From contig JBAIAA010000777.1 in NCBI GenBank assembly GCA_037893245.1, forward strand, positions 310,001 through 374,000: a stretch of 64,000 bases of DNA, read 5' to 3'. A program made the translations under genes and the position numbers. Source of the stretch: Crossaster papposus. Lineage: Eukaryota > Echinodermata > Asteroidea > Velatida > Solasteridae. Positions 36,129 through 62,608 of this stretch are shown here, in pieces (position 1 is the first letter of the stretch; each line of letters opens with the position of its first letter). Below the pieces are notes generated by a model that searched no databases, was not told the DNA's origin, and saw nothing but the letters and a program-made list of their open reading frames with translations.

Positions 36129-36250
36129 TTAGGTGAAAATTTCCTTGTAGACTACGTTGTCTGTGTAGTTGCCTTGCTTCGGTGGGAAATGTCCATTGTG
36201 GGTGACGATCTTGATGTTCTGTTTGTTGTGGACTCTGCTGATGGCGACGG
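36129..36250 (-). CDS. Possible 3'-terminal coding exon, function unknown
   Basis: The minus strand reads SRVHNKQNIKIVTHNGHFPP, then KQGNYTDNVVYKEIFT and a stop. Codons end mostly in C or G (AAC, ATC, AAG, GTC, ACC, TAC), unlike the AT-rich surroundings, which suggests coding constraint. AG dinucleotides at the upstream side (CATCAGCAG) could be an acceptor. The 138-bp satellite begins immediately upstream. I do not recognise the family and no partner exon is identified. Confidence 0.3.
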
Positions 36251-36252
36251 AC

Positions 36253-37458
36253 CTTTCCAAAAATGAACCCCTCAAGGGCAATTCTGGGGTCAACTTACAT
36301 CCACCCACCAAGTTTGGGCGAGATCGGACCAAGGACTTGGGAGGAGTAGCGAAAAACGAACATTTGACCTTTGACCCCAGTGACCTTGACCTTTCCAAAA
36401 ATGAACCCCTCAAGGGCAATTCTGGGGTCAACTTACATGCACCCACCAAGTTTGGGCGAGATCGGACCAAGGACTTGGGAGGAGTAGCGAAAAACGAACA
36501 TTTGACCTTTGACCCCAGTGACCTTGACCTTTCCAAAAATGAACCCCTCAAGGGCAATTCTGGGGTCAACTTACATCCACCCACCAAGTTTGGGCGAGAT
36601 CGGACCAAGGACTTGGGAGGAGTAGCGAAAAACGAACATTTGACCTTTGACCCCAGTGACCTTGACCTTTCCAAAAATGAACCCCTCAAGGGCAATTCTG
36701 GGGTCAACTTACATGCACCCACCAAGTTTGGGCGAGATCGGACCAAGGACTTGGGAGGAGTAGCGAAAAACGAACATTTGACCTTTGACCCCAGTGACCT
36801 TGACCTTTCCAAAAATGAACCCCTCAAGGGCAATTCTGGGGTCAACTTACATCCACCCACCAAGTTTGGGCGAGATCGGACCAAGGACTTGGGAGGAGTA
36901 GCGAAAAACGAACATTTGACCTTTGACCCCAGTGACCTTGACCTTTCCAAAAATGAACCCCTCAAGGGCAATTCTGGGGTCAACTTACATCCACCCACCA
37001 AGTTTGGGCGAGATCGGACCAAGGACTTGGGAGGAGAAGCGAAAAACGAACATTTGACCTTTGACCCCAGTGTCCTTGACCTTTCCAAAAATGAACCCCT
37101 CAAGGGCAATTCTGGGGTCAACTTACATCCACCCACCAAGTTTGGGCGAGATCGGACCAAGGACTTGGGAGGAGTAGCGAAAAACGAACATTTGACCTTT
37201 GACCCCAGTGACCTTGACCTTTCCAAAAATGAACCCCTCAAGGGCAATTCTGGGGTCAACTTACATCCACCCACCAAGTTTGGGCGAGATCGGACCAAGG
37301 ACTTGGGAGGAGTAGCGAAAAACGAACATTTGACCTTTGACCCCAGTGACCTTGACCTTTCCAAAAATGAACCCCTCAAGGGCAATTCTGGGGTCAACTT
37401 ACATCCACCCACCAAGTTTGGGCGAGATCGGACCAAGGACTTGGGAGGAGTAGCGAAA
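36253..37458. repeat. 138-bp satellite, about 8.7 units, open on both strands
   Basis: The unit begins CTTTCCAAAAATGAACCCCT and contains AAGTTTGGGCGAGATCGGAC and TTTGACCTTTGACCCCAGTG. Its length is 46 codons, so an absence of stops in one unit gives open frames of over 400 codons on both strands; this is a periodicity effect and not evidence of two proteins. Units differ by single bases (CATCCACCC or CATGCACCC). It ends in an ACAGACAAACAGACAGAC-like tail. Confidence 0.93.
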
Positions 37459-37589
37459 CAAACACACAGACAAACAGACAGACAAACGTTGCTCGAATTA
37501 TAGTATGATGATGATGATGCTTGGCTGAATCCGCGGCCAGAAATCCGGCCGAATACGCAGCTACCTTGAGCAAGGTAAAAGCGCGCAAA

Positions 37590-37811
37590 AGTTGAACCAC
37601 AACGTTAATTGAAAGTTGAGTACGACGTTTTGAAAGTTGAACCACGACGTTTTGAAAGTTGAACCACGACGTTTTAAAAGTTGAACCATGACGTTTTGAA
37701 AGTTGAACCACGACGTTGCCTGTCCGTTTTAGAACACCATAACATTCAAAACTTTTAAAACGTCGTACTTCACCTTTCAAAACGTCCTGGTTCAACTTTC
37801 AAAACGTCGTA
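37590..37811. repeat. Inverted array of GTTGAACCACGACGTTTTGA units
   Basis: About five forward copies of the ~23-bp unit (37590-37717) are followed by three reverse-complement copies (37745-37811), with a spacer of ~30 bases. The array can fold as a long hairpin. Confidence 0.8.
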
Positions 37812-42309: not shown

Positions 42310-43564
42310 CTATGCAAATAGTAGCAGCATCAGCAAGCTTAAGAGAACGTGTCTCTGGATTGTGGGGCACTTCTTGCAATCCGGCAATCTGCTCTGATGC
42401 ATCACAAATACCAACGCTGGCAACTGCGAGCCTCTCATGAGTTTGTCCGCTGTGAATTCTCTGCAATTCAATCTGCTCTGCTGGCTCCTGTCGGGTATTT
42501 TGGCGTCGTGTGCTTTGGCGTTTGGTATTTTGGCGTCGGGTGTCTGGTGTTTTGGTTTTGTTACAACTGTAACAGTGGCAGCAGCAACAGCAACGACAGC
42601 GTTTTGGATCAAGGCAGGAAAATGTTCCACTAAGGCTGCCCGGTAGTCAGCATTTACGCCACTGTATACCAGAGGGTTAACTGAAGAATTCAGCAAGAAC
42701 AAAATAATACCGAGAAGGTTTACATGAAGCAGTGAATTCTTAACGTTGATTTCATTCAAAGTAGAGAGGCTAACCCAGATCAGGACTAATGACATTGTTC
42801 ATTGTATAATGAACACAATATTGAGGGTAAAAAACACAGCAGTGTTTACCACAAGCATGGCAATGACCCGGCGCAGTTTGTGGTGTGATTGTGTCGATGT
42901 AATATCTTCTGGTTGTCTTCGAAGTTTCTTGACAATGCAAACATACAGGAAGGCATTGATAAACAGACCGGCTGTGAAAATAAAAATGACCAGAATGTAA
43001 CAAATGGTTGCTCCAATTTGTCCTCCACAATGGATTGTCACAATTGTCCCAATTCCTAAGGTTGCTGCAAGCACCCACATCACTGCCACTATCTTAGCCG
43101 CGCGAGTTTTGCTGGCTACCATTCTAAATGTCAGCGGATGTCGAACAGCAGAGAACCTCTCAACGGCTAAAGCTGTGACGATGAAGTAGGATGCCCAGTT
43201 GGCTGAGCTGCCCAGAGAACGTAGAAAGAGACTGCGCACCAAACCCATCATCCCAAATCACCCAAATGAGCTCATCTACGAGAAACAGGCTGTCGGCCAC
43301 TGCTAAGTTGGCCAAGTAGACATTGACAATGGAGTGCATAGATTTGATGCGCCCCACTACGTACAGGAAAATCGCGTTCATCAACAGGCCGATAGGCACC
43401 ATGTACTTGATGCATTCAATCACAATAGCATTGTTGATTTTCCAGTGCCTATCATAATCTTGTGCTGCTTGGACCAGCTCCGAGTCTGGGGAGTCGTGTA
43501 CAATTTGTGTTTCGTTGAAACTGCGTGAGGCATTGACATGCCAAGACAAATTGGTAGTTGCCAT
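42310..43564 (-). pseudogene. Rhodopsin-class GPCR, nearly full length but broken twice
   Basis: The start MATTNLSWHVNASRSFNETQ has three N-glycosylation sequons. Then come TM1 (KYMVPIGLLMNAIFLYVV), TM2 (VNVYLANLAVADS), TM3 ending ALAVERFSAVRHPL (ERF in place of DRY), TM4, TM5 (ICYILVIFIFTAGLFINAF), TM6 (IAMLVVNTAVFFTLNIVF) and TM7 with NPLVY (NPxxY). The frame shifts near 43250 between TM2 and TM3; the paralogue suggests two bases are missing. An in-frame TGA at 42799-42801 separates TM6 from TM7. TM6 lacks CWxP. The tail carries a degenerate PDAKIPNAKAHDAKIP repeat. Echinoderm genomes have large expansions of such receptors; the ligand is unknown. Confidence 0.8.
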
Positions 43565-43579
43565 AACTGACCGTAACAA

Positions 43580-44379
43580 TGTTTGAACATTAATTTGATG
43601 TGTTTAGTTTTGTCACAGATGAGATTGTGATGTGTGGTACAAGTAACCTACAAATGTACGTATGGTTCCCAACTGTAAACACAAAGGAATTTAATTTGTT
43701 TTCTTTAATTTCTAACAAAACTGAAACTGAAATGTCGTTATAAACTTCTCTGAAATCTCATCTAAAATTTCATCTTTTTGTTCGTACTTGTCCAATGTCA
43801 CTTTCATTTTGTACAGTACCTGGGAAAGTGAAACTATGTAAGGCCTACATGAGTGTGCTTGAATTTCAGCCTGGCAACAGTCATTTTTGGCGAGACTAGG
43901 GTTTAGTTGGAACGATATTTCACAAATGGGTTTTAGTCAAGAAAAAATAACTATACTAGTTCATACATTTGTGTGTTACAAAATGTGGCCTATAACATTC
44001 TTAGACTTGTTGATGGTTATAAATAATCCACCTTGAACACGACTATGTCGTGTGTTTCAACTTACCCAACCTATGGGGTAAGTTGAAAAATGGTACATAT
44101 AATAACTTTAATAAAAAATACATTTAATATAAATTTTAATGGACTATCCCAGACAAATTCCTAGAATGAGATGTAGTTTCTTGGCGTACGTACGGTACCG
44201 GTAATTGTGAAAGTGGCATATATAATAATTACAGACACTATTGGAAGGTGTCCACACATTTTGCAATCTGCATTCGGATGAGTTTCTGTTCCCTACGATT
44301 GTATTTTAATGATAGGGTTAAATGCAAGATGTGCACTAATACTAAAGCACAAAGGTTTGTTACTATTCAGCTGGCAGCT
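43580..44379. other. Spacer between the two divergent GPCR copies
   Basis: About 800 bases with no further exon. No core promoter can be assigned with confidence. Confidence 0.5.
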
Positions 44380-45028
44380 ATGGCGACTCCCAACAGTTCA
44401 ACTGGACTTTCTGAAGCCTCCAGCAATATCACTCAAGCATTCGACACCACAGAGGAAGACTTAATTTCGGTTAAAAAAAGTCAAGCACAAATCAACAATG
44501 CCATTGTGATTGAAAGCGTCAAGTACATGGTGCCTATCGGCCTGTTGATGAATGCGATTTTCCTGTACGTAGTGGGGCACATCAAATCTATGCACTCCAT
44601 TGTCAATGTCTACTTGGCCAATTTAGCAGTGGCAGACAGCGTGTATCTCATAGCTCAACTGTTTTCGATAATGTGGACTCGTGTCTTAGGTAAAATGCGC
44701 TTTGTCCTCCGTTATCTGGGCGGCTCAGCCAACTTGGCATCTTACTTCATTGTCACGGCTTTAGCCGTTGAGAGGTTCTCTGCTGTGCGACATCCGCTGA
44801 AATTTAGAACGGTAGCCACCAAAACTCGCGCTGCCAAGATAGTGGCAGTGATGTACTTGCAGCAACCTTGGGAATTGGGACAATCGTGACAATCCATTGG
44901 GGAGGACAAATTGGAACAACCATTTGTGACACGTACTCTGATCATTTTTATTTACACAGCCGGTCTGTTCATCAATGCCTTCCTGTATGTTTGCATTGTC
45001 AAGAAACTTCGAAGACAACCAGAAGAAA
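44380..45028 (+). pseudogene. Rhodopsin-class GPCR paralogue, truncated by a repeat insertion
   Basis: The start MATPNSSTGLSEASSNITQA is followed by TM1 (KYMVPIGLLMNAIFLYVV), TM2 (NVYLANLAVADS) and TM3 to ALAVERFSAVRHPLKF. It is a close relative of the gene at 42310-43564, in divergent orientation. A 4-base deletion after KIVAVM (near 44853) breaks the frame in TM4. DNA similarity continues through TM5 to CGAAGACAACCAGAAGA and stops exactly where CTAGACATGTG begins. The 3' part of the gene is not found after the repeat array. Confidence 0.8.
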
Positions 45029-48000
45029 CTAGACATGTGTTTGTGAACAAACACAGAGCTGTTTCGAGTGTCTAAAATTACTTTCAATATGTGTGTGGTG
45101 GTCTTTTGTGTGTGCCCAGTCTCAAGTCGATCAGATTTACTAAAGTGTCAAAGTCAATAGTCTAAAGAAAAACGTGTACAAAACCTATGGGAGACAAATT
45201 GAACCTTTAACGTGACGTCACATGACCTTGAATGACGCAATCGTGCCGAATTTCTTCCAGAACCATCTATGAGTGATGTTCTAAAGGTATACTAAGTCTC
45301 AAGTCGATCGGATTTACCAAAGTGCCAAAGTCAATAGTCTGAAGAAAAACGTGTACAAAACCTATGGGGGGAAAATTGAACCTTTAACGTGCCGTCACGT
45401 GACCTTGAATGCCGCAATTGTGCCGAATTTCTCCTACGACAGTCTGTGGATGGTGGTCTATGTGTGTGCCAAGTCTCAAGTCGATCGGATTTACTAAGTG
45501 TCAAAGTCAATAGTCTAAAGATAAACGTGTACAAAACCTATGGGGGACAAATTAAATTTTTAACTTGACGTCACGTGACCTTGAATGACGCAATCGTGCT
45601 GAATTTCTTTCAGAAACATCTGGTGGTGGTGTTCTGAGTGTGTGGCAAGTTTCAAGTCGGTCGGATTTACCAAAGTGTCAAATGCAATAGTCTGAAGAAA
45701 AACGTGTACAAAACCTATGGGGAAAATTTCACCTTTAACGCGAAGTCACGTGACCTTGAGTGACGTAATCGCGACGAATTTCTTCTAGGACCGTCCTTGG
45801 GTGGTTGTCTAAATGTATGCCAAGTCTCAAGTCGATCGGATTCATTAAAGTGTCAAAGTGTATTGGCTGAAAAAACGTGTACAAATCCTATGGGGAAAAG
45901 TCTGAAAGTGGAAAAAACAAACAAAAAAAACTAGACATGTGTTTGTGGACAAACACAGAGCTGTTTCGAGTGTCTTTCAATATGTGTGTGATGGTCTTTT
46001 GTGTGTCGATCAGATTTACTAAAGTCTCAAGTCGATCAGATTTACTAAAGTGTCAAAGTCAATAGTCTAAAGAAAAACGTGTACAAAACCTATGGGGAAA
46101 AATTTAACCTTTAACGTGACACCCCGTGACCTTGAATGACGTAATCGTGCCAAATTTCTCCTACGACCGTCTGTGGATGGTGGTCTATGTGTGTGCCAAG
46201 TCTCAAGTCGATCGGATTTACTAAGTGTCAAAGTCAAGAGTCTAAAGAAAAACGTGTACAAAACCTATGGGGGACAAATTAAACCTTTAACTTGACGTCA
46301 CGTGACCTTGAATGACGCAATCGTGCTGAATTTCTTTCAGAAACATCTGGTGGTGGTGTTCTGAGTGTATGGCAAGTTTCAAGTCGGTCAGATTGACCAA
46401 AGTGTCAAATTTAATAGTCTGAAGAAAAACGTGTACAAAACCTATGGGGAAAATTTCACCTTTAACGCGAAGTCACGTGACCTTGAATGACGTAATCGCG
46501 ACGAATTTCTTCTAGGACCGTCCTTGGGTGGTTGTCTAAGTGTATGCCAAGTCTCAAGTCCATCGGATTTACCAAAGTGTCAAAGTGTATTGTCTGAACA
46601 AACGTGTACAAATCATATGGAGAACAAAAGGCAAAAAAAAACTAGACATGTGTTTGTGGACAAACACAGAGCTGTTTCGACTGTCTAACGTTACTTTCAA
46701 TATGTGTGCTATAGGTCTATGTGTGTGCCAAGTCTGAAGTCGATTGGATTTACACAAGTGCAAAAGATAAATTAGTTGAACAAAACATGTACAAATCCTA
46801 TGGAGAAAAATTGAACCTTTAATGTGACGTCACATGATACCCGATGATGTCATCATGATGTCATCTTAATTTTCGTCTGTAACACATCCTAGAATACTTG
46901 CATACCAAGTTTGACCCCAATCGGACATGTACTTCTAGAGATAGAGGGTCCTTAAAACTAAACCTTTAATGTGACGTCACATGACCCACGATGACGTCAT
47001 TATGACGATTTTTCCCTTGGCCCTCCTGGTGATGGTGGTCGAGTTATGTGCTAAGTCTGAAGTCGATAAAATTCACGAAAGTGTCAAAGTCAATAGTCTA
47101 AAGAAAAACGTGTACAAACCCTATGGGGAAAAAAATTGCACCTTTAACTTCACGTCACGTGACCTTGAATGACGCAATCGTGCCATATTTATTTCAGAAA
47201 CATCTGGGGGTGGTATTCTAAGTGTATGCCAAGTTTCAAGTCGGTCGGATTTACCGAAGTGCCAAAGTCAATAGTCTGAAGAAAAACGTGTACAAAACCT
47301 ATGGGGAAAATTAAACCTTTAACGTGACGTCACGTGACCTTGAATGACGCAATCGAGCCAAATTTCTTCTAGGACCATCTGTGGGTGGAGGTCTAAGTGT
47401 ATACCAAGTCTCAAGTCGATTGGATTTAGCAAAGTGCCAAAGTGTATTGGCAGAACAAACGTGTGTAAATCCTATGGGTAAAAACACTGAAAGTGGAAAA
47501 AAAACAAAAAAAAAAAAACTAGACATGTGTTTGTGGACAAACACAGAGCTGTTTCGGGTGTCTAACATTACTTTCTATATGTGTATCTGATGATGGTCTT
47601 TGTGTGTGCCAAGTCTGAAGTCGATTGGATTTACACAATTGCCAAAGATATATTAGTTGAAAAAAAATGTACAAATCCTATGGGGAAAATTGAACCTTTA
47701 ATGTGACGTCACATGACACCCGATGATGTCATCATGATGTCATCTTAATTTACGTCTATGACACATTCTGGAATACTTGCATACCAAGTTTGGCCCCAAT
47801 CAGACATGTACTTCCAGAGATAGAGGGTCCTAAAATCTGCCCCTTTAATGTGACGTCACATGACCCACGATGACGTCATTCTGACGATTTTCCCCTTGGC
47901 CCTCCTGGGTTTGATGGTCGAGGTGTGTGCTAAGTCTGAAGTCGATCGGATTTACCAAATTGTCAAATTCAATAGTCTGAAGAAAAACGTGTACAAAACC

Positions 48001-51000
48001 TATGGAGAAAATTGAACCTTTAATGTGACGTCACATGACACCCGGTGATGTCATAATTACGTCATCTTAATTTTCGTCTATAACACACCCTCGAATACTG
48101 GCAAACCAAGTTTGACCCCAACCGGACTTGTACTTTCAGAGTTAGAGGGTCTTAAAAACTACACCTTTAATGTGACGTCACATGATCCGCGATGACGTCA
48201 TCTTGAATATTTTTTTCTTGGCCCTCCTAAGGATGGTGGTCGAGGTCTGTGCTAAGTCTCAAGTCAATCGAGTTTACAGAAGTGTCAAATTCAATATTTT
48301 GAAGAAAAACGTGTACAAAACCTATGGAGAAAATTAAACCTTTAATGTGACGTCACATGACACCCGATGATGTCATAATTACGTCATCTTAATTTTCGTC
48401 TATAACACATCCTTGAATACTTGCAAACCAAGTTTGACCCCAACCGGACTTGTACTTTCAGAGTTAGAGGGTCTTAAAAAACTACACATTTAATGTGACG
48501 TCACATGACCCGCGATGACGTCATCTTGATTATTTTTTTCTTGGCCCTCCTGAGGATGGTGGTCGAGGTCTGTGCTAAGTCTCAAGTCGATCGAATTTAC
48601 CAAAGTGTCAAAGTCAATAGTCTGAAGAAAAACGTGTACAAAACCTATGGGAAAAAAATGCACCTTTAACGTGACGTCACGTGACCATGAATGACGTAAT
48701 CGTTACGAATTTCTTCTAGGACTATCTGTGCGTGGTGGTCTTAGAGTATGCAAAGTCTCAAGTCGATCGGATCTACCAAAGTGTCAAAGTGTACTGGCTG
48801 AACAAAACACGTGTACAAATCCTATGGAGAATAGTCTGAAACAGAAGAAGAAAAAAAAAAAACTAGACATGTGTTTGTGGACAAACACAGAGCTGTTTCG
48901 AGTGTCTTACATTATTTTCAATATGTGTGTGTGGTGGTCTATGTGTGTGCCAAGTCTCAAGTCGATCAAATTTAAGAAATTGTCAAAGTCAATAGTCTAA
49001 AGAAAAACGTGTACAAAACCTATGGGGGACAAATTGAACCTTTAACGTGACGTCACATGACCTTAAATGACGCAATCGTGCCGAATTTCTTCCAGAACCA
49101 TCTGTGGGTGATGTTCTAAAGGTATGCTAAGTTTCAAGTCGATCGGATTTACCAAAGTGCCAAAGTCAATAGTCTGAAGAAAAACGTGTACAAAACCTAT
49201 GGGGCACAAATTGAACCTTTAACGTGACGTCACATGACCTTAAATTACGCAGTCGTGCCGAATTTCTTCCAGAACCATATATGAGTGATGTTCTAAAGGT
49301 ATGCTAAGTCTCAAGTCGATCGGATGTACGAAAGTGCCAAAGTCAATAGTCTGAAGAAAAACGTGTACAAAACCTATGGGAAAAATTTCACCTTTGACGC
49401 GAAGTCACGTGACCTTGAATGACGTAATCGCGACGAATTTCTTCTAGGACCGTCTTTGGCTGGTTGTCTAAATGTATACCAAGTCTCAAGTCGATCGGAA
49501 TTACCAAAGTGTCAAAGTGTAATGGCTGAAAAAACGTGTACAAATCCTATGGGGAAAAGTCTGAAAGTGGAAAAAAAAAAAAAAAAAAAAAAAACTAGAC
49601 ATGTGTTTGTGGACAAACACAGAGCTGTTTCGAGTGCCTAAAATTACTTTCAATATATGTGTGGTGGTCTTTTGTGTGTGCCAAGTCTGAAGTCAATAGT
49701 CTGAAAAAAAACCGTGTACAAACCCTATGGGAAACAAAAAATCACGTTTAACGTGACGCCCCGTGACCTTGAATGACGCAATCGTGCCGAAGTTCTTGCA
49801 GGACCATATGTGGGTGGTGTTCTAAGTGTATGCCAAGTTTCAAGTCGGTCGGAATTACCAAAGTGTCAAAGTCAATAGTCGGAAGAAACCGTGTACAAAA
49901 CCTATGGGGGAAACAATTGAACCTTTAACATGACGTCACGTGACCTTGAATGACGCAATCGTGGCGAATTTCTTCCTGGAACATCTGGGGGTGGTGTTCT
50001 AATACACTAAGTTTCAGGTCAGTCGGATTAACCAAAGTGTCAAAGTCAATAGTCTGAAGAAAAACGTGTACAAAACCTATGGGAAAAATTTCACCTTTAA
50101 CGCGAAGTCACGTGACCTTGAATGGCGTAATCGCGACGAATTTCTTCTAGGACCGTCTTTGGGTGGTTGTCTAAATGTATGCCAATTCTCAAGTCGATCG
50201 GATTTACCAAAGTGTCAAAGTGTATTGGCTGAAAAAACGTGTACAAATCCTATGGGAAAAAGTCTGAAAGTGGAAAAAAAAAAAAAAAAAACTAGACATG
50301 TGTTTGTGGACAAACACAGAGCTGTTTCGAGTGTCTTACATTATTTTCAATATGTGTGTGTGGTGGTCTATGTGTGTGCCAAGTCTCAAGTTGATCAAAT
50401 TTACGAAAGTGTCAAAGTCAATAGTCTAAAGAAAAACGTGTACAAAACCTATGGGGGACAAAATGAACCTTTAACGTGACGTCACATGACCTTGAATGAC
50501 GCAATCGTGCCGAATTTCTTCCAGAACCATATATGAGTGATGTTCTAAGTGTGTGCCAAGTCTCAAGTCGATCAAATTTACGAAAGTGTCGAAGTCATAG
50601 TCTAAAGAAAAACGTGTACAAAACCTATGGGGGAAAAAATTGAAACTTTAACTTGACGTTACGTGACCTTGAATGACGCAATCGTGCCGAATTTCTTCCA
50701 AGACCATCTGTGGGTGATGTTCTAAGTATATGCCAAGTTTCAAGTCGGTCGGATGTATCAAAGTGTCAAAGTCAATAGTGTGAAGAAAAACGTGTACAAA
50801 ACCTATGGGAAAAATTTCACCTTTAACGCGAAGTCACGTGACCTTGAATCACGTAATCGCGACGAATTTCTTCTAGGACCGTCCTTGGGTGGTTGTCTAA
50901 GTGTATGCCAAGTCTCAAGTCGATCGGATTTACCAAAGTGCCAAAGTGTATTGGCTGAAAAAACGTGTACAAATCCTATGGGAAAAAGTCTGAAATTGAA

Positions 51001-51019
51001 AAACTTTAACGAAAACAAA

Positions 51020-51048
51020 AGCTGTTTCGGTGAAAAACCGAAACAGCT
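51020..51048. repeat. Family A 5' hairpin
   Basis: AGCTGTTTCGG, a 7-base loop and CCGAAACAGCT form an 11-bp perfect stem. It lies six A residues from the CTAG of the next element. Confidence 0.9.
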
Positions 51049-51625
51049 AAAAAACTAGACATGTGTTTGTGGACAAACACGGAGCTGTTTCGAGTGTCTA
51101 AAATTACTTTCAATATGTGTGTGGTGGTCTTTTGTGTGTGCCAAGTCTCAAGTCGATCAGACTTACTAAAGTGTCAAAGTCAATATCCTAAAGAAAAACG
51201 TGTACAAAACCTATGGGGGAAAAATTGAACCTTTAACGTGACGTCACGTGACCTTGACTGACGCAATCGTGCCGAATTTCTTTCAGGAACCTTTGGGGGT
51301 GGTGTTCTAAGTGTATGCCAAGTTTCAAGTCGGTCGGATTCACCAAAGTGTCAAAGACAAAAGTCTTAAGAAAAACGTGTACAAAACCTATGGGACAAAT
51401 TTCACATTTAACGCGAAGTCACGTGACCTTGAGTGACGTAATCGCAGCGAATTTCTTCTAGGACCGTCCTTGTGTGGTTGTCTAAATGTATGCCAAGTCT
51501 CAAGTCGATCGGATTTACCAAAGTACCTAAGTGACCTGTCTGAACAAACGTGTACAAATCCTACGGAGAAAATTCTGAAAAACAAAAAAAAAAAAAAGAA
51601 AAAAAAAAACTTTAACGATTACAAA

Positions 51626-51711
51626 AGCTGTTTCGGTGAAAAACCGAAACAGCTAAAAAAAAAAACTTTAACGAAAACAATAGCTGTTTCGGCTGAATTG
51701 CCGAAACAGCT
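51626..51711. repeat. Two consecutive family A 5' hairpins
   Basis: AGCTGTTTCGG...CCGAAACAGCT occurs at 51626-51654 and at 51682-51711 (loop CTGAATTG in the second), separated by A-tract and CTTTAACGAAAACAA. Confidence 0.9.
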
Positions 51712-52445: not shown

Positions 52446-52474
52446 AGCTGTTTCGGTTTTTCACCGAAACAGCT
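52446..52474. repeat. 5' hairpin of the outermost element (family A)
   Basis: AGCTGTTTCGG, loop TTTTTCA, CCGAAACAGCT. It is followed by TTTTGTTTTCGTTAAAG and a T-tract, the same order as in the array at 51000-51711 on the other strand. Confidence 0.9.
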
Positions 52475-52515
52475 TTTGTTTTCGTTAAAGTTTTTTTTTT
52501 TTTTCTTTTTTTTTT

Positions 52516-52670
52516 GGGTTTTTCGCTTAAAAGCGAAAAACCCTTTCTTTTCGTTCTGTTTGTTTTATTTTTGGCTTTTTCGCAATTTTGCGAAAAAGCC
52601 TTTGTTTTTGTTCTGATTTTTTTTTTTCTTTTTTTTTTTTTTGGCTTTTTCGCAATTTTGCGAAAAAGCC
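52516..52670. repeat. Three 5' hairpins of the inner elements
   Basis: GGGTTTTTCGCTT/AAGCGAAAAACCC at 52516-52543, and GGCTTTTTCGCAA/TTGCGAAAAAGCC at 52573-52600 and 52643-52670. Stems are 13 bp with 2-base centres, and each is followed by a TTTTCGTTCTG- or TTTTTGTTCTG-type segment. Confidence 0.9.
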
Positions 52671-52686
52671 TTTGTTTTTGTTCTGA

Positions 52687-52717
<31 letters not shown>

Positions 52718-54602
52718 TTTTTTTTTCTTTTAGTAACCTAAACTCCATAGACTTTGTACACGTTTTTTTGCACAAGTACTTTTGCCAGAAAACAAAGTCA
52801 TATTTCCATAAAACTTAACCCAAGTGAAGACCCCATAGTAAGCTCGTGCCTAGCAAACATACGTCATGGTGACGTCATCAGGGATCACGTGACGTCATAT
52901 TAAAGGTGCAATTGATTTAATCTTTGAAAATCAATAACAAATCAACCGCAAAAGACCTAAACTTGATTTTTGTGGCAATAGATAGAATAATTAAGGATCT
53001 TCATTTCATCTCATGTGCGTGAAATCACGTGACCCTTCCTTCCGGTCCAAACCGGAAGTGCCTTATAATTTAAAACTGGAAAATGATATGAACTTAATTT
53101 CAACGATGTTAGTGTCTGGCTAGAATAAACTTTTCAAAAAATTACCGGCGACGTCATAACACGTTATAGCGCCCTCTAGCGGCAGGTTGAAAAATGGTTA
53201 AAATGCATAATTTGTTGGTGTGTGTGGCGAAGTTTGCTGAAATCACTTCATAACCGGTGTATATAATCAGCTTCGTGCTAAGAACATATTGAGAAAGAGA
53301 TTTATTGATGACGTCACCAAACCGGAAGTTACAATGAAAAGACCTTAACACCTTAAAACGTCGCTTAGACTTTGTACACGTTTTTTTGCACAAGTACTTT
53401 TACCAGAAAACAAAGTCGTATTTTCATAAAACTTAACCCAGGTGAAGACCCTATAGAAAAATCGTGTCTCGCAGACATACGTCATGGTGACGTCATCAGG
53501 GGTCACGTGACGTCATCTTAAAGGTGCAATTGCTTTAATCTTTGAAAATCAATAACAAATCAACCGCAAAAGGCCTAAACTTGATTTTTGTGGCAATAGA
53601 TAGAATAATTAAAGATCTTCATTTCAACTCATGTGCGTGAAATCACGTGACCCTTCCTTCCGGTCCAAACCGGAAGTGCCTTATAATTTAAAACTGAAAA
53701 ATGATATGAACTTACTTTCAACGATGTTAGTGTCTGGCTAGAATAAACTTTTCAAAATAATTACCGGCGACATCATAACACGTTATAGCGCCCTCTAGCG
53801 GCAGGTTGACAAATGGTTAAAATGAATAATCTGTTGATGTGTGTGGCGAAGTTTGCTGAAATTACTTTATAACCGGTGTATATATAATCAGCTTCGTGCT
53901 AAGAACATATTGAGAAAGAGATTTATTGATGACGTCACCAAACCGGAAGTTACAATGAAAATACCTTAAAACCTTTTCTGTTAATTACGTCACGATGACG
54001 TCATCAAGTGTCAGATTACAAGCAACCAAATATTTCTAAATTTAATCTTTGAAAATCAATATAAAATCAACTGTAAGAGATCTGATTTAGATTTTTAGGA
54101 GAATTGATAGATTAATCCATGGTCTTCATAATTTGTATTACATGCAAAAAGACCTGACCCTTCCTTCCGGTCCAAACCAGAAGTGCATTATAATTTAAAA
54201 GTGGAAAACGATGTAAACTTATTTAAAACGATGTTAGGCGCTGGCTAGGTTATAAGTAAAAACAAAGTTAACGTTGACTTCATAAAATGTTATAGCGCCC
54301 TCTAGCGGCATGTTGACAAATGTTACGTCATATTACGATTATATTTGAATTATTACGTTTTTCGACCTTTAAGTCATATCTCAGCAACGGAACGTGCTAA
54401 CATAACATACGTTTGTATTGTTAGGTGATAGATAGTTGCACAAAAAGTTCAGAAACGTGTGACGTCATCGTTTTAATCAGTTTGAGTTTATTTTAATCTG
54501 TTTAAATTAACTTAAATTCGGTTTTTTTGAAAACAAATACTCTAAAAAAATGGGAATACGAAAAAGCCCTATGTTCTGTTCCTTGAACAGACGTAGTTCT
54601 AG
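52671..54602 (+). repeat. Family B body, copy 1
   Basis: Three monomers of ~500-620 bp, each with CATGTGCGTGAAATCACGTG or a relative, CTTCCGGTCCAAACCGGAAG and AGCGCCCTCTAGCGGC. It ends CGAAAAAGCCCTATG, the hairpin TCTGTTCCTTGAACAGA and GTAGTTCTAG. Confidence 0.85.
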
Positions 54603-56493
54603 TTTTTTTTTTTTTTTCTTTTAGTAACCTAAACTCCATAGACTTTGTACACGTTTTTTTGCACAAGTACTTTTGCCAGAAAACAAAGTCATATTTCCAT
54701 AAAACTTAACCCAAGTGAAGACCCCATAGTAAGCTCGTGCCTAGCAAACATACGTCATGGTGACGTCATCAGGGATCACGTGACGTCATATTAAAGGTGC
54801 AATTGATTTAATCTTTGAAAATCAATAACAAATCAACCGCAAAAGACCTAAACTTGATTTTTGTGGCAATAGATAGAATAATTAAGGATCTTCATTTCAT
54901 CTCATGTGCGTGAAATCACGTGACCCTTCCTTCCGGTCCAAACCGGAAGTGCCTTATAATTTAAAACTGGAAAATGATATGAACTTAATTTCAACGATGT
55001 TAGTGTCTGGCTAGAATAAACTTTTCAAAAAATTACCGGCGACGTCATAACACGTTATAGCGCCCTCTAGCGGCAGGTTGAAAAATGGTTAAAATGCATA
55101 ATTTGTTGGTGTGTGTGGCGAAGTTTGCTGAAATCACTTCATAACCGGTGTATATAATCAGCTTCGTGCTAAGAACATATTGAGAAAGAGATTTATTGAT
55201 GACGTCACCAAACCGGAAGTTACAATGAAAAGACCTTAACACCTTAAAACGTCGCTTAGACTTTGTACACGTTTTTTTGCACAAGTACTTTTACCAGAAA
55301 ACAAAGTCGTATTTTCATAAAACTTAACCCAGGTGAAGACCCTATAGAAAAATCGTGTCTCGCAGACATACGTCATGGTGACGTCATCAGGGGTCACGTG
55401 ACGTCATCTTAAAGGTGCAATTGCTTTAATCTTTGAAAATCAATAACAAATCAACCGCAAAAGGCCTAAACTTAATTTTTGTGGCAATAGATAGAATAAT
55501 TAAAGATCTTCATTTCAACTCATGTGCGTGAAATCACGTGACCCTTCCTTCCGGTCCAAACCGGAAGTGCCTTATAATTTAAAACTGAAAAATGATATGA
55601 ACTTACTTTCAACGATGTTAGTGTCTGGCTAGAATAAACTTTTCAAAATAATTACCGGCGACATCATAACACGTTATAGCGCCCTCTAGCGGCAGGTTGA
55701 CAAATGGTTAAAATGAATAATCTGTTGATGTGTGTGGCGAAGTTTGCTGAAATTACTTTATAACCGGTGTATATATAATCAGCTTCGTGCTAAGAACATA
55801 TTGAGAAAGAGATTTATTGATGACGTCACCAAACCGGAAGTTACAATGAAAATACCTTAAAACCTTTTCTGTTAATTACGTCACGATGACGTCATCAAGT
55901 GTCAGATTACAAGCAACCAAATATTTCTAAATTTAATCTTTGAAAATCAATATAAAATCAACTGTAAGAGATCTGATTTAGATTTTTAGGAGAATTGATA
56001 GATTAATCCATGGTCTTCATAATTTGTATTACATGCAAAAAGACCTGACCCTTCCTTCCGGTCCAAACCAGAAGTGCATTATAATTTAAAAGTGGAAAAC
56101 GATGTAAACTTATTTAAAACGATGTTAGGCGCTGGCTAGGTTATAAGTAAAAACAAAGTTAACGTTGACTTCATAAAATGTTATAGCGCCCTCTAGCGGC
56201 ATGTTGACAAATGTTACGTCATATTACGATTATATTTGAATTATTACGTTTTTCGACCTTTAAGTCATATCTCAGCAACGGAACGTGCTAACATAACATA
56301 CGTTTGTATTGTTAGGTGATAGATAGTTGCACAAAAAGTTCAGAAACGTGTGACGTCATCGTTTTAATCAGTTTGAGTTTATTTTAATCTGTTTAAATTA
56401 ACTTAAATTCGGTTTTTTTGAAAACAAATACTCTAAAAAAATGGGAATACGAAAAAGCCCTATGTTCTGTTCCTTGAACAGACGTAGTTCTAG
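54603..56493 (+). repeat. Family B body, copy 2 (offset 1891 bp, nearly identical)
   Basis: Position-for-position copy of the preceding 1.89 kb; I noted a single substitution (G at 53583, A at 55474). It starts within a T-tract and ends with the same hairpin and CTAG. Confidence 0.92.
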
Positions 56494-57604
56494 TTTCTTC
56501 TTCTTCTTCTTCTTCTTGTTCTTGTGCCATAAATCGCATAGACTTTGTACACGTTTCATTCTGGCGGTCACTTTTGTCATTAAACAGACTTCAATGTCAT
56601 TGAAACTTTGCACATACTCGGAACTCATACTGAGCTAGTGCCTAAAACTCGGATGTCATCATGACGTCACCACGTGACATGTGACGTCATCTTAAAGTTT
56701 TAATAATTTAATCTTTGAAAATCAATACAAAATCAACCGCGAAAGACCGAAACTAGATGTTTGTGGGAATCGATAGAATAATTAAGGGTCTTCATTTTAT
56801 CTCGTGTGCGTAAAATCACGTGACCCTTCCTTCCGGTCCAAACCGGAAGTGGCTTATAATTTAAAAGTGGAAAATGATTTGAACTTACTTTCAACGATGT
56901 TAGTCTCTAGCTAGGCTGCGCTCTACAAAAAAAGTGATCGGTGACATCATAAATTGTTTTAGCGCCCTCTAGCGGCAGGTTGAAAAATGTTTGAAATGAA
57001 CAATCTGTTGATGTGTGTGGCGAAGTTTGTTCAAATCACTTTATAACTGATGTATATAATCAGCTTCATGATAGGAACAGGTTGACGGAAAGAAAAAAAT
57101 ATGACGTCACCAGACCGGAAGTTATAATGAAATTACCTCTTTTCCTTAAAAAATTCCTAAAAAATTAACCCAGACAGATATAATCTTGTTTTTTGCTCTA
57201 AAGGTTAATGTAAAAGTACTTCTCAGACTTCCCTGTGTTTTGTAGCAAAAGGCGAACTTGGACATAGCCTGAGACACCCTTGAAATTTCATGTTTTTTGT
57301 CCTTGATTGCAAGGCCCCAGTATACGTGTACATTGTATTAAGCGTACTTGCACGTACATGTACGATGTCAGTACGCTCCATACATTGTACAATAGAGAAG
57401 GGAAGGCGGGACACTGGTATCCATTTGTACGGTGACATGTGAAACACGAGAGTCATCAACATAGGCCACGAGGAAGGGCGCCGCTTATGGCAGGTAGGTA
57501 AACGTGCCTTCGGCAACGCAGAACTACGCGTGAATTATACACGTACCACAGTCAGTCCGCAGCGCACGGGTTAATAAGGTCATATCCCGAACTTTATTTG
57601 AAGG

Positions 57605-58295
57605 GCCGGTGTGGAAGGTAATTCTGTCCCCCGGTAAAATTGTCCGGGGGGACAGAATTACCTAGGTAAAAGTGTCCCCCTAGAGACGTTAATTCTGTCC
57701 CCCTCTAGTTTATTCTGTCCCCTCTCTAGGTAATTGTGTCCCCCAATGTTCCACACATAAGCGGTTATTTTGATGTTATTTCAATGAAAAGCCCACATGG
57801 TATTTATTATTTTGACTTCTCTTCCCTTTATCGATTTATCAAAACAAAAATACAAATACAAATAACTTTATTAATTAAATCAACCGATCTACGTTTCTGC
57901 GCGAAAGGGAAAATGGCAGTAATCAGTATTTTTAGACTTCTTGCACGCGTACAGATTCTAGATACCCAGCACGAAATAAGGCAGCACTTTTGACCACCTG
58001 TAATTTGTAGGACTCTACACATCCTACAGTCTGCCACAAATAATGCACCATAGAGGGGTGAACCTGTACTACACTGGTTGTTGCGTCTAGTGGGTGCTAG
58101 ACTTGTGACGTTGCACGGGACAAATTTACCAGGGGGACACGTTTAACGTTGGACGGGGAGACAGAATTACCTGGAGGGGGACAGAAATACCTAGGTAAAT
58201 GTGTCCCCCCGGACAGATTTACCGGGTCACGGCCTGGTAAGTCTGTCCGGGGGGACACATTTACCAGGGGGGACAGAATTACCTTTCACACCGGC
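57605..58295. mobile_element. MITE with GCCGGTGTG ends and GTCCCCC subterminal repeats
   Basis: GCCGGTGTGGAAGGTAATTC is mirrored by GAATTACCTTTCACACCGGC. Subterminal segments repeat AATTCTGTCCCCC and GGTAAATGTGTCCCCC many times in both orientations. Confidence 0.8.
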
Positions 58296-58984
58296 GTCGC
58301 AAATCGGCCACGAGATTTACGCGAGTAATTGCAGGAGTTCGACCGCTTTGTTTTCACGAGCTACACGTTGCAAACGAAGCAGTGATTTTCCAAGATGGCG
58401 TGGTAAGTGGAAAGCGAACGATTTTCTGAATCGAATGATATAAAATATGACGAGATTCAGTGTGTTTTTGGCAGAATTTTGTTCACTCGAAGTTAGAGTA
58501 TAATTTCAAGAAATGTTTTTGTCGTGTGTTTAGTTTCTGCGCCCTGACTGGACTAACAAATATTACCAAAAATGATCACTACACATTGATAAAAGAAGCA
58601 ATGATATTTCGTTTGATATACAATTTAGCCTGTGGCGACATTTTGTTCATGTATTTTGCGACGATTTTCGTGCGCGCGATTTCAACTTTTTCGGCCATGT
58701 CTTTCGGCTTTACATACGCAGAACGTGTATTTCATTATGCACACAAGCACATGTGTACATGTGCTGGATATGCACTAGATGCGATGGTGATTGCACAGTA
58801 GCCTTATTTATATGATAAAGTTAGGTTTCTTTCATGTATAAAAAGGCCTATGTTTTTGTTCAAAATTATAACAAATTGCTTAATAATAATAAATTTAGTT
58901 ACTACTATTATTGTGCTAAACTTCATAGTTCCTATTTCTGTCTTCCAATATGTTTCTTATACTAGGTAGCACTCGTCCACCACC

Positions 58985-59340
58985 ATGGCCATGCCCACCA
59001 CCATGCCCACCGCAGCCATCGCAGCCATTGCCAGCATGTCGGGAGCCTCTACAGAAGGCCAAAGGCAACTCTTCTCCTTGGATATTCTCTCACAAAGTAT
59101 CTCAAAGAGAACATCACTACTAAAGTTGGTTGATTTGCAGGTAGTGACTCATCGCGGTACTACATTTTCTGACCTTAGAAAGTATCTGCTTCATCAGCAT
59201 GACATCTGCTCTTATTCCTCCATGGCCTGACATTGTATTTGTAATGATTCATGTTGGGACAAATGATCTAGAGTTGGGTTTCCAAAGAAGTGTTGAAAAT
59301 AGTTGAAGATTTAAATGTACTGGTGGATATGCAGCACGTG
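58985..59340 (+). pseudogene. Degraded SGNH/GDSL-hydrolase-like fragment
   Basis: One frame gives RGTTFSDLRKYLLHQHD; a shifted frame continues IPPWPDIVFVMIHVGTNDLE. The PDIVFV.IHVGTNDL block is the block III (GTND) region of SGNH hydrolases, which also occur next to zinc-knuckle and reverse-transcriptase proteins of transposons. The frame shifts at about 59210 and again near 59300. The catalytic GDS block is not seen. A possible acceptor (ACTAG) lies at 58966. Confidence 0.4.
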
Positions 59341-60699
59341 CTTTGTACATGTATATTTAAAGGTTTTGTATTTTAGTGTTTTAAATAATATACATGACTT
59401 TGTGTCAGTGTTGTGCAAACGCAATGCAGCTAAAACAGATCAAAACCGAGTGTGGCCGAGTCGGGTGAGTTTGTCAAAACATCTAGGAATAATGCCCCAA
59501 ACTATGCCAACAAAGTTTTGAGCTACAATGTAAATTTGACACAAACGGCATATAACTTTATTAATGCAGATTGTATTATTTCTATTATCAGTGATATAAT
59601 TTATGTGCATTAACACTTATATTAGCAAAATTTATGTCTTATTTAAAATATTTTGTTTTTGCAATGTTAGAAGCGGGCATACATTGTAATTTAATATTTA
59701 CAATAATTTAATGCCAAAGAAACTATGCCAAAAACATCAAGCAAAGATAAAACAAGCTTTATTTACTTTTATAATAAATCTCAATGGTTTGCACATTGAA
59801 CATTATGCCAAAGATGAATAAGTTTTAACAATTTCAGGGTTTAATTTAACAATTTTATTCAAGCCATATAACATCAACAGGGTATGTTAATGTAAGCGAT
59901 AAAATTCAAGTTTCAGATAAAAAGTGCAGTTTCCTTTATAAACCAACCTCACAATACAGAAACTGATATAAATTGTTGTAAACATTTGTATTTCTCAATG
60001 TTATTGTTGTCAATACATTTTAAACAACGACTTCATTTGTCGCTTGTTTTTTGTTTATTTGGCTGTATACATTGTATTATGCAGGCAATATTATTATTTT
60101 TTAATCAGTTCACTGTTAAAAAGAAAAAAAACCTGAATAGCAGATAAATCCTTTTCGCTCGAGCTTACAATTAAAAAAATACACAAAAAACAACTGCGTA
60201 TTGAAATGTGCATGAACTACACGTTACCACGAAGCCTTTTTCAATGAAGTCATTTTCGACCAATGAGGGCGCAGGAAGACTATGGACTGTCATGGCGGGA
60301 TGTTCCGTTTGTTAATTTATTGAGAACGTTATAATTTTCTGCGCCCTGACTGGACTAAGTGTGAAATTGGGTTGTGGCCGCTGCCAGAAGATGGACAAAA
60401 TTCGTCTTTTTTTAAAGGTCAATTTGTTGGTTCGGGAGCTTTTTTTACGTTATAAATTTTACCCTCTAAATGTCATATAAATTCCAATCTGATTTGATAA
60501 TATAACAAAATGTTTCTTTATCCAAAAGAAAATATACATAATATTGACAGCCAGTGAATAAAACGGATGTTTCGGACCAAATTCCAGGCGTTGTCGCCAG
60601 CTCATTAAGTATTCAAAAACGAGGTCACGCACAAAGTGCCATGCATAAATCGCACATAAAAGAAACGGCTTTTCAGTGCGCTGCGGACTGACTGTACCA

Positions 60700-61920
60700 T
60701 ATAATAGATGTACGCGAACGTTTGCACAAGTACTTTTAACAGAAAACAAATTGGTATTCCCATCAAACTTAACCTCCGTAAATACTCTATAGTGCACTCG
60801 TGCCTTGCGGACAGGCGTCGTGATGACGTCACCATGGGTCACGTGACGTCGTCTTAAACGTGCAATAGATTTAATGTTTGAAAATTAATAAAAAAATCAA
60901 CCGCGTATGATCGGAACTTGAAGTTTGTGGGAATTGATATAATATTAAATCCATGATCTTCATTTTATCTCGTGTGCGTGAAATCCCGTGACCCTTCTTT
61001 CCGGTCGAAACCGGAAGTGGCTTATAATTTAAAAGTGGACCATAATGTGAACTTATAGTTTCAACGATGTTAGTCTCTGGCTAGTAGTGCTTTTCACACA
61101 AAAATACCGGTAACGCCATAACATGTTACAGCGCCCTCTAGCGGCAGTTTGAAAACTGTTAACAATGAATAACCAGTTGATTTGTTTTGCGAAGTTTGCT
61201 CAAATCACTGTATAACTGGTTTATATAATCAACATCTTGTTAGGAACAAGTTGGCGAAGACAAAAAAATATGACGTCACTAGACCGAAAGTTACAATGAA
61301 AAGACCTTTAAACCTTAAATAATTGCTGAAAAATCAACGCGATAGATATAATTCTTTTTTTTGCTTTAAATAGACAAGTTCAGACAGCTCTCGAGCTGTA
61401 TGTTAATGACGTCACGATGACGTCATCAAGTATCAGATTGCAAGCAACTAATGATTTGTAGATTTAATCTTTGAAAATCAATATCAAATCAAATGTAACA
61501 GATCTGATTTAGATTTTAACGGGAATTGATAGAATAATCCAGGGTCTTCATATTCGTATTACATGCAAAATGACTTGACCCTTCCGTCCGGTCCAAACCG
61601 GAAGTGCCTTATAATTTGAAAGTTGAAAATGATATGAATTTACTTTCAACGATGATAGTCTCTAGGTAGCCTGCACTCTACAAACAAAGTTACCGGTGAC
61701 GTCATAATTTGTTATAACGCCCTCTAGTGGCAGGTTGAAAAATGTTTAAAATGAATAATCAGTTCATTTTCGTGGCGATCAGTTTGCTCAAATCGCTTTA
61801 TAATTGGTATTTATAATCAGCATCTTGTTAGGAACAAGTTGGCGGATAAAAACAAAATAATATGACGTCACTAGACCGGAAATTACAATTAAAAGACCTT
61901 TAAACATTTCTAAAAATTAA
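60700..61920 (+). repeat. Two diverged family B monomers
   Basis: They carry CTTTCCGGTCGAAACCGGAA / CGTCCGGTCCAAACCGGAAG, TTTCAACGATG and GCGCCCTCTAGCGGCAG (61130-61145); the second is mutated at that site (ACGCCCTCTAGTGGC). Confidence 0.8.
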
Positions 61921-62077
61921 CCGCGAGAGATATAATCCAATTAATAATTTAAAATTTGCATTTTTGAAAAAATTAAATAAAGAAATTTATTAAATGAAAT
62001 CATAAATGTAATGAACAATACCAAAAAAAAATGCGAAAAAGCCATATGCTCTGTTCCTTGAACAGACATATCTCTAG

Positions 62078-62608
62078 TTTTTTTGTTTTTTTTTCCCACT
62101 TTCAGACTTTTTCCCGTAGGATTTGTACACGTTTTTTCAGCCAATACACTTCGACACTTTGGTAAATCCGATCGACTTGAGACTTGGCATACACTTAGAC
62201 AACCACCCAAGGACGGTCCTAGAAGAAATTCGTCGCGATTACGTCATTCAAGGTCACGTGACTTTGCGTTAAAGGTGAAATTTTCCCCATAGGTTTTGTA
62301 CACGTTTTCCCTCAGACTATTGAATTTGACACTTTGGTAAATCCGACCGACTTGAAACTTGCCATATACTCAGAACACCACCACCAAATGTTTCTGAAAA
62401 AAATTCAGCACGATTGCGTCATTCAAGGTCACGTGACGTCAAGTTAAAGGTTTAATTTGTCCCCCATAGGTTTTGTACACGTTTTTCTTTAGACTATTGA
62501 CTTTGACACTTTCGTAAATTTGATCGACTTGAGACTTGGCACACACATAATGAAAGTTATCTTAGACATCCGAAACAGCTCTGTGTTTGTCCACAAACAC
62601 ATGTCTAG
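62078..62608 (+). mobile_element. 3' part of the outermost family A element
   Basis: A T-tract and CCCACTTTCAGACTTTTTCC are followed by about three ~177-bp repeats in the opposite orientation to those at 45029-51600, then CGAAACAGCTCTGTG, the ACAAACACA hairpin and CTAG at 62605-62608. The host MITE resumes at the next base. Confidence 0.8.

Follow-up and report, generated by a model that had tools for sequence, protein, structure and literature searches.

How does a row of four hairpins, followed kilobases later by a row of four similar ends, come to stand in a genome? This question is raised by a locus of Crossaster papposus (Asteroidea) at positions 52446-62608, plus strand, of a stretch of 64,000 nucleotides (contig JBAIAA010000777.1, positions 310,001 to 374,000), hereafter called the window, which was searched as part of the 1.02-Gb assembly (1841 contigs). 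The locus is a four-deep nest, A[B[C[D]]], in which four 5' hairpins and four CTAG ends stand in matching order, and it is very probably a nest of non-autonomous, Helentron-type (HINE-like) transposable elements that was built by repeated transposition. The original prediction had placed the hairpins at 52446, 52516, 52573 and 52643 and the CTAG ends at 54602, 56493, 62077 and 62608, reading them as brackets that close around elements inserted in the T-tract behind the previous 5' hairpin. All the hairpins and ends are present at those positions, and the outer T-tract and outer body are seen to resume after each inner CTAG, as had been claimed. The features are the following:

52446..52474, plus strand: 5' hairpin of A, the outermost element, with AGCTGTTTCGG arms (sequence and fold)
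52475..52515, plus strand: left piece of the A landing pad (spacer and T-run), 41 nt (41 + 36 = 77)
52516..52543, plus strand: 5' hairpin of B, with GGGTTTTTCGC arms (sequence and fold)
52544..52572, plus strand: left piece of the B pad, 29 nt (29 + 42 = 71; the intact B on contig C162 has 69)
52573..52600, plus strand: 5' hairpin of C, with GGCTTTTTCGC arms (identical to the D hairpin)
52601..52642, plus strand: left piece of the C pad, 42 nt (42 + 33 = 75)
52643..52670, plus strand: 5' hairpin of D, the innermost element (sequence and fold)
52671..54602, plus strand: D, with intact pad, 1879-bp body, 3' half-stem, 3' hairpin and CTAG end
54603..56493, plus strand: C, pad and body resumed, CTAG end (the body is that of D with one base changed)
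56494..62077, plus strand: B, pad and body resumed, CTAG end
57610..58290, no strand assigned: separate inverted-repeat element within B (CCGG at both flanks)
62078..62608, plus strand: A, pad and body resumed, 3' hairpin, CTAG end (half-stem CCGAAACAGCT at 62570-62580)
45029..51711, minus strand: second, divergent array of A-family elements, 734 bp from the plus-strand nest, with three 5' hairpins and eight CTAG ends (unbalanced)

The bracket order was assessed on 20 stretches (10 kb each) that surround exact copies of the C/D 3' end, plus four extensions; 22 sequences, including both strands of the window, were parsed, and yielded 87 hairpins and 100 CTAG ends. When each end was paired with the last hairpin opened, the family labels agreed in 60 cases and conflicted in 4, and 36 ends had no open hairpin to close; first-in-first-out pairing of the same ends gave 40 agreements and 28 conflicts. 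Both families were present in 10 of the 22 sequences. Permuting labels within stretches left on average 26.1 conflicts for the 5' labels (minimum 11) and 19.4 for the 3' labels (minimum 8), global permutation left 44.1 and 32.9, respectively, and as few as 4 conflicts were reached in none of 2000 permutations under each of the four schemes. The array on C97 has all the labels of its eight hairpins and eight ends in perfect order, with outer DNA that is unrelated, by eye, on both sides.

A second line of evidence comes from removing the inner intervals and aligning the rejoined flanks to single copies, a check whose outcome was positive for B and C, A having been compared only with a diverged A. 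With D removed, C agrees at 1950 of 1959 bases with L021, a lone copy located in a TTA microsatellite. With C and D removed, the pad and body start of B resemble those of the uninterrupted B on C162, another contig, and the two B bodies are 98.8% identical over 1119 bp; beyond a further insert in the window B, identity is 98.7% over 829 bp. In L015 there is a third B, which an A-family nest interrupts at nearly the same point (26 versus 29 nt). In L020 the outer spacer is broken at TTTGTT and resumes with TTTTTGTTCTG past the inner CTAG, both halves being readable because the split lies partly outside the pure T-run.

Two further features of B were observed. About 3.6 kb of non-family DNA (approximately 57152-60720), also found in the C162 and L015 copies within their reach, is a possible capture, and the inverted-repeat element at 57610-58290 is missing from both of these copies, C162 representing the empty site.

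The split pads themselves provide a third line of evidence. Left and right pieces were summed for 33 directly nested pairs, 29 of which were label-consistent by script (for four of these no further end was in view), a number that a check of L028 lowers to 28. The two halves of C pads total 71.1 +/- 7.8 nt (n=17; 20,000 permutations, p 0.004), and intact C pads measure 57-77 nt in 23 of 24 cases (131 nt in the remaining one). The halves of B pads, 71 nt in the window and 68 nt in the TTAAAA-loop B of L015, come close to the length of the one intact B pad. Label order, rejoining and pad sums together support the bracket reading as nested insertion in the T-tract behind the previous 5' hairpin, and the nest as an observation is confirmed beyond chance. 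As read from the DNA itself, the arrays combine nesting order with a single orientation and, for C and B, with split complementary pads and with uninterrupted counterparts of the elements.

Where the elements land was examined in the best 40 of 951 candidates, exact copies of one 3' end listed regardless of context. The downstream flank could be read for 39 of these: 34 continue into a T-run and the body of another member (24 C-type, 10 A-type), 3 into a hairpin (two rows beginning with one were counted so by eye) and 2 into unrelated DNA. At the other end, 53 of the 87 hairpins follow another 5' hairpin at a distance of 6-51 nt, 22 come 2-24 nt past a CTAG (in 7 cases at exactly TT), 2 lie in the TT of another 3' end (rows L025 and L014, assigned by eye) and 10 are found elsewhere, each after TT, with 2-5 T's. 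Stacked hairpins may include copies made by slippage, in which case separate landings would be fewer than counted. In this sample, as far as sequence can tell, the elements have a strong tendency to lie in the pads of other members, and the proposal that a T-tract carried by every element acts as a self-propagating trap fits both the 3' flanks and the hairpin positions. Orientation is single within each stretch for the 87 directional 5' units and for 104 3' ends (found with a looser pattern than that of the 100-end parse), which is what targeting of the T-bearing strand would predict.

The ends indicate to which class these elements belong. The 5' hairpins of A, B and D fold into 12-bp stems of -12.6 to -13.2 kcal/mol, and none of 200 shuffles was equally stable. 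The half-stem of A, said to be repeated inverted ahead of the 3' hairpin, does so at 11 of 11 bases, and the inverted half-stem near the 3' end of B, C and D has one mismatch; the 3' half-stem begins 39 nt (A) or 45 nt (D) from the 3' end and is followed by a hairpin and, last, CTAG. Helentron-type HINEs share this arrangement: a 5' subterminal inverted repeat (subTIR) that is palindromic in itself, like those of mite HINEs (here with 12-bp stems), an inverted subTIR copy close to the 3' end and then a short palindrome, and insertion at TT or T-rich sites with T's at both sides and no longer duplication. TT terminates the left flank at all 10 non-nested sites, and two extra T's in L020 and L021 point to either copying of TT or T's borne by the element. 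The bodies contain internal repeats, spaced 507-618 bp in D. The predicted Helentron/HINE-type anatomy (5' hairpins, inverted half-stems, 3' hairpin) is thus well supported by published HINE features, and so is, by structure and target, the assignment of the elements as non-autonomous and Helentron-type (HINE-like). Two other classes were considered and rejected. Canonical Helitrons start with 5' TC, end in 3' CTRR and insert between A and T; these elements end in CTAG, which fits CTRR, but start with GGC, GGG or AGC and insert at TT. A SaTar-like, non-nested array does not describe the locus either, as insertions split elements at their pads.

In the available parts of the published accounts, HINE and DINE-1 elements resemble those described here in the palindromic 5' subTIR hairpin, the inverted 3' half-stem with its short palindrome, the central repeats, the simple-sequence tract near the 5' end and the TT or T-rich target with T's on both sides (PMC4067079, PMC7492417), at least two T's per side having been reported for HINEs (PMC4067079); what differs from these accounts is the deep, one-way nesting in the element's own 5' T-run. 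The FoHeli elements of Fusarium are also similar, with self-insertion, multiple 5' termini and proposed composites, although the accessible text gives one nested example, describes no multi-level balanced arrays and places the insertions of FoHeli1 and 2 outside T-runs, between TNAT and A (PMC5148889). The SaTar/MULE arrays of guayule and rice are likewise mixed-family arrays formed via simple-sequence targeting, but the portion of that report at hand calls them explicitly non-nested, and MULEs have terminal inverted repeats (PMC5907723). Tandem truncated plant Helitrons (Xiong 2016, as summarised in part in PMC12628747) also have unequal numbers of 5' and 3' ends; there many 5' ends accompany one 3' end through rolling-circle amplification, whereas the present arrays consist of whole nested bodies, and it is mostly 3' ends that are in excess. 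The same review, in its available part, mentions dimers arising through insertion preference and shuffled oyster loci (PMC12628747), and an excerpted study of a Calliphora region counted 11 nested repeats among 322 (PMC3630058). A literature search, with most subscription journals outside it, turned up no account that we recognised of deep nests built in one direction within an element-borne T-run. Self-insertion is already known for rolling-circle elements; it is the depth, the one-way orientation and the built-in landing pad that look new.

The original prediction also called for a search for a Rep/helicase element sharing these ends, and such a partner was not supported. Rep/helicase genes are common in the genome (150 of 273 candidates were scored as Helitron_like_N matches), but no shared ends were found in six loci around Rep matches (L033-L038) or in further stretches of C215, C259 and C186. 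The stretches examined contain, where any, only loose and hairpin-less pattern matches, namely two to 5' arms (in L043 and L044) and one to the A 3' hairpin (in L044). Among the listed matches, none of 80 end positions lies, by eye, within 12 kb of any of the 150 Rep places listed. Unlike in the Helentron-HINE pairing, the present elements could be tied to no Rep/helicase partner among the stretches examined. In our reading the C259 end, a GC hairpin followed by CTAG, looks like that of a canonical Helitron. Four Pfam matches, DUF6570, OTU and PHD among them, fall in a 1723-residue part of the C215 protein, but the ends that belong to it were not found.

Several observations weigh against repeated transposition. 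Besides the absence of a partner with matching ends from the few Rep/helicase stretches examined, there are the four label conflicts and the 36 of 100 3' ends without an open hairpin, 11 of which come first in a stretch that is cut at its edge. Complementation of A pads is not significant (n=8, p 0.34), and in L028 the body that comes after the B pad (21 + 45) is A-type, not B-type. Rejoined A matches only one diverged A, in the window (530 of 583 aligned), and rejoined B aligns end to end with C162 at only 1556 of 1696 bases with 606 gap columns, mainly because of the further insert in the window B (with nothing removed, the values are 816 of 1036 and 1906 gap columns). Only one other of 27 such bodies (one partial row of 28 was dropped) has the two variants common to C and D, and two A bodies of the C97 array are each other's closest relatives (5 differences); elements thus also move or duplicate locally, and identical C-family neighbours are indistinguishable from products of local duplication. 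Balanced ends, finally, do not hold as a general rule. Among seven arrays that are bounded on each side by DNA judged unrelated by eye, four are balanced (window plus strand, 4 hairpins to 4 ends; C97, 8/8; L022, 4/4; L021, 1/1) and three are not (window minus strand, 3/8; L016, 1/2; L024, 4/2, in which an A body is cut short and the A end was not seen). Universal balance was therefore rejected, and the count of hairpins is an unreliable count of insertions.

Of the alternatives to repeated transposition, the one that survives best is that nesting was a rare event and that nests, once formed, were copied as composites, with replication running from the outer 5' end past inner 3' ends, or from inside to the outer end. 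It would explain the surplus of 3' ends, and a comparable step is proposed, in the accessible text, for Fusarium Helitrons (PMC5148889). L014 and L028 have a nested pair in common, with the pad split 33/33 and the first 60 nt of the right flank alike, in different surroundings; their outer bodies are mutually closest, with 17 differences compared with at least 62 in every other pair (11 compared). The simplest reading is that one nest moved as a unit, although the inner bodies share no derived state, so that two hits at one spot are the alternative. On the other side, 30 of the 34 nested right flanks (among the best 40 of 951) are distinct, several of them within shared arrays, and most nestings therefore look like separate events. 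Copying as composites as the general origin of the nests is a possibility that we hold below repeated transposition.

Somewhat less probable, and in our opinion unlikely, is that nests are the passive outcome of a preference for TT or T-rich targets and nothing else. Helentrons and HINEs do favour T-rich sites according to the available parts of two reports (PMC4067079, PMC7492417). However, the 47,154 bp of the window outside the two arrays, a single and small sample, contain 6 A/T runs of at least 15, and no ends of the A-D families were found when this DNA was scanned; moreover, the 10 non-nested sites carry only 2-5 T's. Landing sites thus hint at more than T availability.

Local tandem duplication, or unequal crossing-over between T-runs, might instead have multiplied body or hairpin units without new insertions, which we consider improbable. 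Three C-family bodies of the C18 array are identical, the C and D bodies differ by a single base, two A bodies of the C97 array are closest relatives, and near-identical hairpin units of about 49 bp in L026 look like slippage. Against this, many neighbours belong to different subfamilies (for which simple tandem duplication was rejected as the main cause), the two families interleave in bracket order, the halves of C pads are complementary and different inserts interrupt the B copies. The bodies of the minus-strand array differ in length, and mostly in type too, so they were not made by local duplication; a likelier origin there is by separate insertions with hairpin units lost afterwards, or by movement of composites. 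Lastly, repeats collapsed or mis-ordered by the assembly are a highly improbable source, since arrays of the same grammar are found at many loci whose flanks differ, even though T-runs and near-identical copies are hard to assemble.

Under repeated transposition, A would have come first, at a short TT in ordinary DNA, and then B would have entered the T-run 41 nt behind the A hairpin, C 29 nt behind that of B and D 42 nt behind that of C, every insertion in the same orientation. Each element would supply a fresh T-run and each insertion would leave two T-rich half-pads open to further landing, so that a growing nest would offer ever more landing sites. Later losses or duplications of hairpin units (about 50-70 bp, between T-runs) seem to have occurred, and nests may at times move as composites, both of which would disturb the balance of ends. 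The insertions were presumably made by rolling-circle transposition, with a Helentron Rep/helicase acting in trans on a single-stranded intermediate at TT, and T-runs beside hairpins might be favoured because they are single-stranded or enzyme-bound there, the enzyme being held nearby. A targeting device that goes beyond the TT preference is suggested: tentatively, hairpin and T-run would together form a self-targeting device that draws the family's own transposition machinery, with nests then able to travel as composites.

Other observations were made in the window. Within 52446-62608, TGACGTCA is packed in the bodies (26 on the plus strand, 0.16 expected under a first-order Markov model), together with 9 copies of AGCGCCCTCTAGCGG-like motifs, which resemble the CTCF site; as the bodies are rich in both and the nests run one way, one-way motif arrays result. 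At 36129-37604 there is a tandem repeat with frames open on both strands, which encodes a repeated unit, and putative GPCR-like reading frames, judged from their translations, lie on opposite strands at 42310-43257 (minus) and 44170-44889 (plus). Scans of the window with Rfam (gathering thresholds) and for tRNAs gave no matches.

Target choice by rolling-circle transposons is, to our knowledge, poorly understood, and a pad for which the total length of the two split halves is known allows this choice to be read, and tested, on the basis of sequence alone. Automatic repeat annotation should also be misled by such nests, as 10 kb can separate the two ends of a single element. If the self-targeting device is real, new copies would enter old ones, the rest of the genome would be spared and landing sites would multiply. 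A transposon that mainly hits itself may limit the harm to its host while building long directional arrays, which are a possible route towards satellite-like DNA.

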